DNA of 64,000 nucleotides from Planctomycetes bacterium MalM25 (lineage in GTDB: Bacteria; Planctomycetota; Planctomycetia; Pirellulales; Lacipirellulaceae), in the NCBI GenBank assembly GCA_007745835.1, contig CP036424.1, forward strand, positions 3,459,968 to 3,523,967. Reading direction: 5' to 3'. Shown here piece after piece: positions 56,232 to 59,407 of this stretch. The notes under the pieces are model-generated. The model was not told where the DNA came from. It did not search any database and was given only the letters and a program-made list of their open reading frames with translations. How positions within the stretch are numbered: position 1 is the first letter of the stretch; each line of letters starts with the position of its first letter. Position numbers and translations under genes: made by a program.

Positions 56232-56268
56232 AAAAAAGCCCCGAGGGCCGGCTGGCCTTCGGGGCTCG
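56232..56268 (-). terminator. aroF attenuator: intrinsic terminator upstream of DAHP synthase
   Basis: On the minus strand AGCCCCGAAGGCC pairs with GGCCCTCGGGGCT in 12 of 13 positions, with a 4-nt loop (AGCC), followed by TTTTTT. It is 79 nt before the aroF ATG and ~27 nt after the leader stop. Size and form are nearly the same as the leuA terminator. Confidence 0.9.
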
Positions 56269-56294
56269 GTGTTCTAGGTCACACTCTGGCGCGG

Positions 56295-56378
56295 TTACGC
56301 ATGACCTCCGGCCCCGTGGCTTCCGTACCAGAAGCCATAGGTAAAGCTAAACCGAAAGTTGTCGGCGAAGGACCGCAT
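56295..56378 (-). CDS. Aromatic amino-acid leader peptide of the DAHP synthase attenuator
   Basis: A 27-codon frame with eight aromatic codons (Phe at 4, 8, 10, 12, 16; Tyr at 14, 18; Trp at 17), including the run YGFWYG; it begins MRSFADNFRF and ends GAGGHA. Three of the Phe codons are TTT and one Tyr is TAT, which are uncommon in the high-GC neighbours. It is followed by an intrinsic terminator and the gene for the first aromatic-pathway enzyme. After the control codons, CGGGGC can pair with GCCCCG in the 5' stem arm, and GGGCCGG with CCGGCCC in the 3' arm, so alternative folding is possible. A weak -10 (AATACT) lies 6 nt before the ATG with TTGCGT 17 nt further up, so the transcript may be leaderless. 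Confidence 0.85.
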   Translation of the reverse strand: MRSFADNFRFSFTYGFWYGSHGAGGHA

Positions 56379-56433: not shown

Positions 56434-56519
56434 TGTAGGAGGCGTCTCCGACGCCGATTTGGCGCTTCCAGCCTTTGCGGCTGAATTACCGTCATCGGCG
56501 TCGGGAGACGCCTCCTACA
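56434..56519. repeat. TGTAGGAG-type paired hairpin repeat, copy 1
   Basis: The left arm 56434-56458 starts TGTAGGAGGCGTCTCCGAC; the right arm 56494-56519 is its inverse with one extra base. Each arm can itself fold (GGCGTC with GACGCC). It sits between the divergent aroF leader and msrA. Copy 2 is at 60299-60387. Confidence 0.82.
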
Positions 56520-58028: not shown

Positions 58029-59318
58029 TGGCCTGCTATCGAAAACCTGGTCCACGGTTTATGAAGGTCTCAATCAGGAGACCGAAAGATGAGCACGAAG
58101 CGTAGGAAGCGGCACACGCCGGAACAGATCGTGAAGAAGCTCCGCGACGCGGACGCGATGCTCGCGGCCGGCAAGGACCAAGCCGCGGTGCTGCAGGCGT
58201 TGGAGGTAAGCGAATCGACGCTCGAGCGTTGGCGGAAGCAGTACGGCGGGATGAAGTCCGAGGAGGCGGTGCGGTTGAAGAAGCTGGAGGACGAGAACAA
58301 GCGGCTGAAGCAACTGGTGGCGGACCTCTCGCTGGACAATCAAGCGTTGAAGATCGTCGCGGAGGGAAACTTCTGAGCCCTCTCCGGAAGCGAGCGGCGG
58401 TGACCCTAGTGCGATCGCAGTTGGGTCTCTCCGAGCGGAGGGCGTGCCGAGCGATCGGCCAGCCGCGATCGAGCCAGCGATACCGATCGAAGCCACGTGG
58501 CGACGAGCCACGCCTGATCAAACGGATGCTGCAGTTGGTGCGTCGGCGGCCACGGTTCGGCTACCGGCGGATCGCGGCGTTGCTCAGGGCCGACGGCTTC
58601 CGGGCGAGCGAGTCGCGGGTGCTGCGTCTGTGGCGGAAGGAGGGCCTGAAAGTGCCTCGAAAGAAGCGGAAACGACGCCGATTGGGCGTGAAGGAGAACG
58701 GTTGCGATCGTCGTCGAGCCACACACAAGAACCACGTGTGGGCGTGGGACTTCGTGTTCGACAAGACCTCGAAGGGGACTCAGCTGAAGTGGCTCTCGAT
58801 CGTCGATGAGCACACGCGCGAGTGCCTGGCCTTGAAATGCGATCGGGGCATCACGAGCGAGGACGTGATCGACACGCTGGCGGAACTCTTCGCGATGCAC
58901 GGCGTGCCGGAGCACATCCGCAGCGACAACGGCCCAGAATTCACGGCGGGGACGATCCGGCGTTGGCTGGAACAACTCGACGTCGGCGCGCTGTACATCG
59001 AGCCGGGCAGCCCGTGGCAGAACGGCTACGCGGAGAGCTTCCACAGCCGCTTCCGCGACGAGTTCCTGGCGGTCGAAGAGTTCGAGTCGCTCGCCGCGGC
59101 TCGTCGGCTCACGGCCGCTTGGCGAGACGACTACAACCACCACCGGCCGCACAGCTCGCTGGGGTACGTCGCCCCGGCCGAGTTCGCGACCCGCTGCCCC
59201 GCTTCCGCTCCGGAGTCGCTTTCGGCTACGCCTCAAGCACGCCTCCGCTCCAGCAGGGCAGCGGCCTTACCCAACCCGTACCTTCATAACGCGTGGTACA
59301 GGAATTCGATGCTGGTCA
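58029..59318 (+). mobile_element. IS3-family insertion sequence, 1290 bp, complete
   Basis: Bounded by imperfect inverted repeats of ~39-40 bp: left 58029-58068 (starts TGGCCTGC, ends TTTATGAAGGT) and right 59280-59318, whose reverse complement starts TGACCAGC and ends GTTATGAAGGT. The 4-bp direct repeat CGTC flanks it at 58025-58028 and 59319-59322. It carries overlapping orfA and orfB. TG...CA ends, size and the 4-bp duplication fit IS3. It interrupts a dodecin gene. Named subgroup not determined. Confidence 0.93.
58089..58376 (+). CDS. IS3-family transposase OrfA
   Basis: A 95-residue protein with an N-terminal helix-turn-helix (RKRHTPEQIVKKLRDADAMLAAGKDQAAVLQALEVSESTLERWRKQYGG) that binds the IS ends, and a C-terminal leucine-zipper-like helix (VRLKKLEDENKRLKQLVADLSLDNQALK) for multimerisation. 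It has a good ribosome site (AGGAG). It ends GNF at 58376. The in-frame heptamer GGGAAAC (58364-58370) six bases before the stop allows a -1 slip into orfB. Confidence 0.92.
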   Translation: MSTKRRKRHTPEQIVKKLRDADAMLAAGKDQAAVLQALEVSESTLERWRKQYGGMKSEEAVRLKKLEDENKRLKQLVADLSLDNQALKIVAEGNF

Positions 59319-59407
59319 CGTCGTCGAAGCTCTTGGGGCTGCTGGCGATGATCTCGGTGACGCGGGCGACAGACATTTTTAGGGCCGTAAGTTTGAGAGG
59401 CGATTGA
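58373..59407 (+). CDS. IS3-family transposase OrfB (DDE integrase)
   Basis: The catalytic part, in the -1 frame relative to OrfA, reached by frameshift or from a weak CTG-type start. It opens SPLRKRAAVTLVRSQLGLSERRACRAIG, then HTH_21 (LIKRMLQLVRRRPRFGYRRIAALLR), and the rve core: first Asp in VWAWDFVFD, second in IRSDNGPEF, Glu in NGYAESFHSRFRDEFL, with the usual spacing. HHRPHSSLGY closes the core. The frame has no stop inside the IS: it passes the right end at 59318 and ends at 59407, adding ~30 residues antisense to the dodecin start. Confidence 0.88.
   Translation: MSPLRKRAAVTLVRSQLGLSERRACRAIGQPRSSQRYRSKPRGDEPRLIKRMLQLVRRRPRFGYRRIAALLRADGFRASESRVLRLWRKEGLKVPRKKRKRRRLGVKENGCDRRRATHKNHVWAWDFVFDKTSKGTQLKWLSIVDEHTRECLALKCDRGITSEDVIDTLAELFAMHGVPEHIRSDNGPEFTAGTIRRWLEQLDVGALYIEPGSPWQNGYAESFHSRFRDEFLAVEEFESLAAARRLTAAWRDDYNHHRPHSSLGYVAPAEFATRCPASAPESLSATPQARLRSSRAAALPNPYLHNAWYRNSMLVTSSKLLGLLAMISVTRATDIFRAVSLRGD
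59319..59376 (-). pseudogene. Dodecin, N-terminal fragment (split by IS3 element)
   Basis: Starts at ATG 59376 and codes for MSVARVTEIIASSPKSFDD, the first 19 residues of dodecin, before running into the IS at 59318. It includes the CGTC target copy (59319-59322). As it stands, translation would continue ~11 codons into the IS terminal repeat and stop. Confidence 0.9.

Follow-up and report, generated by a model that had tools for sequence, protein, structure and literature searches.

The window analysed here, i.e., the whole stretch of 64,000 nt from the Planctomycetes bacterium MalM25, carries on its minus strand an aroF-type gene for a type I-beta DAHP synthase of 337 aa (56152-55139). The assignment is based on the NCBIfam families NF006421 (475 bits, cut-off 335) and TIGR01361 (DAHP_synth_Bsub; 365 bits, cut-off 268), and two Botrimarina records match the gene at 88-91% identity. 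Together with the same-genus assignment of a genome that shares its contig stretch with B. colliarenosi (identical over the 600 nt compared), this makes the genome very probably that of a Botrimarina (Lacipirellulaceae, order Pirellulales). Upstream of aroF and on the same strand we find a promoter-like motif, a short leader ORF rich in aromatic codons and an intrinsic terminator; the gene begins 79 nt beyond the terminator's T run. The downstream gene thus matches the codon content of the leader, since the aroF product, DAHP synthase, makes the precursor of exactly Phe, Tyr and Trp. The upstream neighbour of the leader, msrA, is divergent, such that there is no coding transcription on the leader strand that would need an insulating terminator.

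Two further features were noted in the surroundings. Just upstream of the leader promoter lies a palindromic element (56436-56517) with TAGGAGGCGTCTCC inverted at both ends, a sequence with 2 matches in the window compared to 0.04 expected. Stretches resembling this element are present before trpE of the same genome and in one further locus (L132), and it may be a REP-like repeat. An IS3 family transposase gene is located at 58089-59407, near the msrA and msrB genes.

The leader ORF (MRSFADNFRFSFTYGFWYGSHGAGGHA), which is kept in relatives, extends on the minus strand from the ATG at 56378 to the end of its stop codon at 56295. It comprises 27 codons, 8 of which are aromatic (F4, F8, F10, F12, Y14, F16, W17 and Y18), i.e., it is the 27-codon frame with eight aromatic codons including a GFWYG run that the earlier note had described. 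GFWYG forms the second aromatic cluster of the window leader and lies within a local hairpin (56337-56317). The more conserved aromatic core reads FWFSFT in many relatives and FRFSFT in the window leader. With at least 8 F/W/Y codons, the leader stands alone among the 486 window ORFs of 12-30 codons (240 on the plus and 246 on the minus strand), and dinucleotide shuffling of the 400 nt that precede aroF never produced such an ORF (0/3000, shuffle maximum 7). The Phe codons of the window leader (TTT 3, TTC 2) also differ in usage from those of four window genes (TTT 1, TTC 66; Fisher 0.0007), and TTT outnumbers TTC (186 vs. 73) when summed across the aroF leaders. Within the aligned ORF, all internal gap runs are multiples of three (20/20), compared to 19/50 past the stop codon. 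An excess of third-position changes was not seen in the aligned leaders (0.36, 0.32 and 0.36 by codon position).

Directly upstream of the ATG we identified a promoter-like motif (56410-56379, minus strand), i.e., CTTGC, a spacer of 17 nt and AATACT, followed by 6 nt to the start codon. A plain sigma-70 consensus scan reports no promoter at the leader; the motif pair came from the comparison of relatives, that is, from their alignment and a best-fit scan over 61 aroF loci. In these loci CTTGC is followed by a spacer, 17 nt long in 49/61, and by xATACT or xACAAT, and the start codon lies 6-7 nt past the -10 hexamer in 48/61; since the scan searched for the very motifs derived from the comparison, its scores are partly circular. 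Shine-Dalgarno-like 4-mers are found in 2/61 loci. The usual distance from the -10 element to the transcription start would place the 5' end of the mRNA at the leader ATG. Given this spacing, the leader mRNA is probably leaderless.

The RNA between the leader start and aroF can form three structures. First, the 5' part folds into a protector hairpin (regions 1 and 2; 56358-56305, minus strand; -24.2 kcal/mol, 0/200 shuffles as good), in which an outer stem (56358-56351 with 56312-56305) encloses the inner hairpin 56337-56317 with the GFWYG codons. In most relatives the outer 5' arm covers TTC TGG, i.e., Phe-Trp codons, which read TTT CGG in the window. Among 26 relatives, 92.6% of the protector cells are paired and 12 cells are changed on both sides, each of which was reached in 0/500 shuffles. 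All 12 double changes fall into the inner helix; in the outer stem just one side varies, and 62/500 shuffles had at least as many doubly changed pairs (3). Second, the intrinsic terminator (56267-56232, minus strand) consists of a stem-loop at 56267-56236 (-25.7 kcal/mol, 0/200 shuffles as good) and a T run to 56232. It covaries in relatives: 95.1% of its cells are paired and 19 cells are changed on both sides (0/500 shuffles), where the 4 pairs that carry double changes were equalled in 112/500 shuffles. The folding and the family matches of the downstream gene thereby bear out what had been claimed before, namely that the leader is followed by a strong terminator and then aroF.

Third, the strand CGGGGC (56316-56311, minus strand), located inside the last leader codons, is complementary to GCCCCG (56265-56260) in the 5' arm of the terminator and would serve as the 5' strand of an antiterminator. 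The six-pair core is paired in 91% of the cells of the 26 relatives. Over the 8 pairs of the antiterminator stem covariation is absent (76.0% paired vs. 76.2% in shuffles). When antiterminator strands and terminator arms are permuted among loci, a locus's own combination pairs better than the permuted partners in both groups studied (34 and 25 loci; 0/5000 each), although relatedness among loci partly remains in this comparison. A mutually exclusive antiterminator may exist; the kept complementary strand and the positive partner-swap test speak for it, and the absent covariation does not.

We also computed for 59 leaders to what degree upstream RNA sequesters the terminator's 5' arm (the tie-up) if a ribosome is placed at each codon. 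No terminator could be assigned for L024, and L106 and L039 were dropped due to mis-assigned terminators. The tie-up is about 0.70 for ribosomes at codons -24 to -13 from the stop, 0.51 at -11 and 0.27 at -8; that is, values range from 0.46 to 0.70 across -19 to -10 and from 0.23 to 0.27 from -8 on. Aromatic codons follow the same pattern, i.e., they occupy the positions -19 to -10 in 34-73% of the leaders, -9 in 17% and later positions in 0-8%. The mean tie-up is 0.67 for stalls at aromatic codons and 0.46 for stalls at others. Placement and tie-up together argue that a ribosome halted among the aromatic codons leaves the antiterminator strand free, and that a ribosome beyond them does not. 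Base composition does part of this work, since the tie-up is still 0.57 (vs. 0.69) when the freed ORF tail is shuffled. The tie-up is also about 0.6-0.7 when the ribosome stands at the very first codons, such that equilibrium folding alone predicts no termination of an untranslated leader. Equilibrium folding being insufficient, the order of synthesis, with the protector forming first, has to be invoked.

The arrangement is conserved in relatives, a check that the earlier note had proposed for the short frame. We took 80 aroF loci from contig records and further ones from whole genomes. Among 43 Lacipirellulaceae genomes searched, 38 have an aroF orthologue at 67-100% identity whose match begins at residue 1, and the remaining ones gave only aroF fragments, the paralogue or nothing. 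A leader precedes aroF in 37 of these 38 loci. In 35 of the 38 it lies within the first upstream stretch read, and in L102 (MQATYGYFWFSSTRSFFFTRGGGAGGNA) and L117 (MSHCCWYYYWFAFTRLGSGTGG) it is located further upstream; at L104 no leader was seen upstream of aroF. MSGKYWQFFWFSFTGFFYGNLGAGGCA (L087) and MANKFWYYFWFSFTRPGSGAGGCA (L092) are typical leaders of relatives.

Outside of Lacipirellulaceae, we scored planctomycete aroF loci by two criteria, namely a match with E up to 0.01 to an RNA model derived from 26 aroF leaders, or an ORF chance test (p up to 0.05; with 100 shuffles for each locus, the lowest attainable p is 0.01) combined with a score floor. At least one of the two is passed by 34/56 loci, where L010, one of 27 model-positives, contributes with the terminator half only at a contig end and L047, L049, L052 and L055 were scored without the RNA model. 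The other 22 loci fail both. Four of these (L057, L058, L060 and L063) have a peptide that nevertheless resembles that of the passing L050, and many others belong to Rhodopirellula, Rubripirellula, Stieleria and neighbours, a clade in which the leader seems to have been lost (e.g., L041, L045, L054). In a phylum sample, 14/29 aroF loci pass the same criteria (L162 and L164 unscored and counted as misses). On its own, the ORF chance test gives p up to 0.05 at 78 of 141 loci, which include other phyla. Inspection by eye of five further families of the class shows an aromatic ORF with a hairpin behind it in 14/20 upstream regions, with a T run that is short or not seen in L223, L229 and L234; in the family f85, both ORF and hairpin are present in 11/12 upstream regions, with Trp-rich peptides such as FGYWWWARSF. 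Of 196 genomes of the order scanned with the RNA model, 126 contain hits with E up to 0.01, although these hits include other leaders and bare terminators.

Given the terminator, the complementary strand, the codon placement and the conservation, we read the element as a ribosome-mediated transcription attenuator controlling aroF, to which we assign a probability of roughly 0.88 based on the sequence evidence; the earlier note's claim of an attenuator upstream of DAHP synthase is supported to that extent. The mechanism would be as follows. RNA polymerase would start at or next to the leader ATG with a ribosome translating the leader behind it. A shortage of charged Phe-, Tyr- or Trp-tRNA would stall this ribosome in the aromatic block, which would leave CGGGGC free to pair with the terminator's 5' arm, such that no terminator forms and transcription continues into aroF. 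With charged tRNAs at hand, the ribosome would cover CGGGGC, or the protector would re-form behind it; the terminator could then form and transcription would end before aroF.

Which amino acids the leader responds to is a separate question. The peptide composition suggests that all three aromatic amino acids are sensed: F, W and Y occur together in 48/61 aroF leaders, Y in 59/61 and W in 50/61, and some families carry runs such as GYWWWARSF. The same counts can be read for a genuine attenuator that responds to a single amino acid, most likely Phe, with the Tyr and Trp codons as bystanders or fine tuning. Phe is the commonest residue (per-leader means of 4.25 F, 2.20 Y and 1.08 W over 61 leaders) and W is missing from 11/61; furthermore, the aroR leader of Corynebacterium glutamicum is reported to contain Tyr yet to respond to limitation of Phe and not of Tyr (PMC11802643). 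Since Y and W are kept in most leaders at the frequencies given above, we regard this single-amino-acid response as the less probable version, albeit the likeliest of the alternatives considered here.

An additional role of the terminated leader RNA or of the peptide in trans, like that of rnTrpL and peTrpL in Sinorhizobium meliloti, is in our view improbable. Such roles are described for the leaderless, attenuated S. meliloti trpL transcript (PMC7298713), but the RNA-level constraint on the peptide tail explains its conservation here without any function in trans.

Plain terminators are common, and four other matches of the RNA model that were read in the MalM25 genome look like terminators only, but an ORF that arose by chance in front of an ordinary insulating terminator is hardly credible in view of the ORF chance tests, the conservation and the divergent msrA, and the same low probability holds for a T-box or riboswitch, for which the leader region has no Rfam match at gathering score. 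The Rfam scan of the window returned at gathering score only a tRNA elsewhere; the best sub-threshold hit at the leader was sX13 with 23.6 bits (vs. 50). Covariance model matches hence lend no support to a T-box, a riboswitch or a known Rfam leader at aroF. The four matches in the MalM25 genome (3167055, 3165072, 3640302 and 1845312), which is one contig of 4.72 Mb, were dropped from further consideration as plain terminators.

Leaders of the same layout occur before other amino acid biosynthesis genes, which we count in support of the attenuator reading of the aroF element. We read 18 secondary matches of the RNA model. Ten of them are Leu-rich ORFs before leuA and two are Ile-rich ORFs before citramalate synthase; the rest comprise one aroF leader and five plain terminators. 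Within the window itself, a Leu leader (MTATNLLLPLLLLAPNGS, 3788-3732; 3788-3661 with its terminator, minus strand) precedes leuA for 2-isopropylmalate synthase (3612-2062). Here, CTA provides 3 of the 7 Leu codons, compared to 2/141 in four window genes. The Ile-rich leaders with terminators are found in L149 and L141 (MTRRVIIIPIPHARRS; IIGIIGIIIGSQGP) before citramalate synthase-like genes, both of which are partial and stay below the full-length cut-off, with TIGR00977 as best family.

The layout has well-known counterparts. In Escherichia coli, trpL and pheL each respond to one amino acid and control genes of the respective branch. The aroF leader shares with them a leader ORF with codons for the product, predicted alternative hairpins and an intrinsic terminator. 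It differs by its mixed codons, by its position at the common first enzyme and by a putative antiterminator strand that lies inside the ORF tail. The closest precedent by gene is aroR of C. glutamicum, where a DAHP synthase gene (aroF) is likewise preceded by a short leader containing aromatic codons and ribosome-stalling attenuation is reported (Neshat 2014, as cited in PMC11802643 and PMC4046766). Compared by description, aroR of this actinobacterium has Phe-Tyr-Phe only, in contrast to the 8 aromatic codons including Trp of the Planctomycetota leader. Attenuation was also suggested for the DAHP synthase gene of E. coli and Shewanella, i.e., a Tyr-tRNA attenuator of aroF (PMC2659441, in a table citing Camakaris 1980); unlike the present case, this concerns the Tyr-sensitive enzyme and a single amino acid, and the Shewanella case is a prediction. 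Leaderless leader peptides are described for S. meliloti trpL (PMC7298713) and for leuL, trpL and others of Streptomyces lividans (PMC8079986). In these other phyla the 5' end of the leader mRNA was mapped to the start codon or its immediate vicinity, which is what we deduce for the planctomycete leader.

With regard to novelty, an earlier survey of Actinobacteria states that no conserved RNA structures were found before phenylalanine or tyrosine operons (PMC1262725). A 2010 paper notes that, as far as its authors knew, its Firmicutes case was the first leader-peptide attenuator shown outside Proteobacteria and Actinobacteria (PMC2965389). In PMC4833913, Planctomycetes are among the groups for which leader genes close to gene starts were counted, and these genes are connected with reinitiation. 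We found no example of a planctomycete attenuator in the open-licence literature, which is weak evidence of absence. The earlier statement that no attenuator of this type is described in planctomycetes therefore stands within this literature; as a type, C. glutamicum aroR already provides a precedent for attenuation at a DAHP synthase gene. What is new here are the occurrence in planctomycetes, the mixed F/W/Y codons, the wide spread and the sister Leu and Ile leaders.

Taken as a whole, we lean slightly towards the view that leaderless attenuators of the ribosome-mediated kind, not described before as a set, occur across Planctomycetota (F/W/Y at aroF, Leu at leuA, Ile at citramalate synthase), that the aroF leader combines the signals of Phe, Tyr and Trp at the common first step, and that the set gives evidence of transcription-translation coupling. 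This coupling has been questioned for a planctomycete (PMC5394234). Attenuation works only if a ribosome follows RNA polymerase closely, so its upkeep would, if true, be genomic evidence for coupling, large-genome families included. Leader-peptide attenuators would thereby be extended to another phylum, and the aromatic pathway may have at its entry a single sensor for three amino acids; phylum spread, mixed codons and the bearing on coupling set the leader above an ordinary annotation.

Other aromatic genes of the same genome were inspected as well. By eye, no aromatic leader was seen in the 258-300 nt upstream of trpE and of the pheA-aroF2 pair, hence control may sit at the common step. The second DAHP synthase (aroF2; G000:C1:1239826-1240848) is 52% identical to the window aroF and lies directly behind a pheA-like gene, without a leader of its own. 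Beyond the phylum, 6/31 DAHP synthase loci of Acidobacteriota look alike by eye (L193 unscored and counted as a miss), e.g., MNRAARYFSYWFWSPTP. Their aromatic-rich short ORFs are found in L183, L184, L195, L196, L203 and L206, one of which ends in SYYWYSWYWFSPRG.
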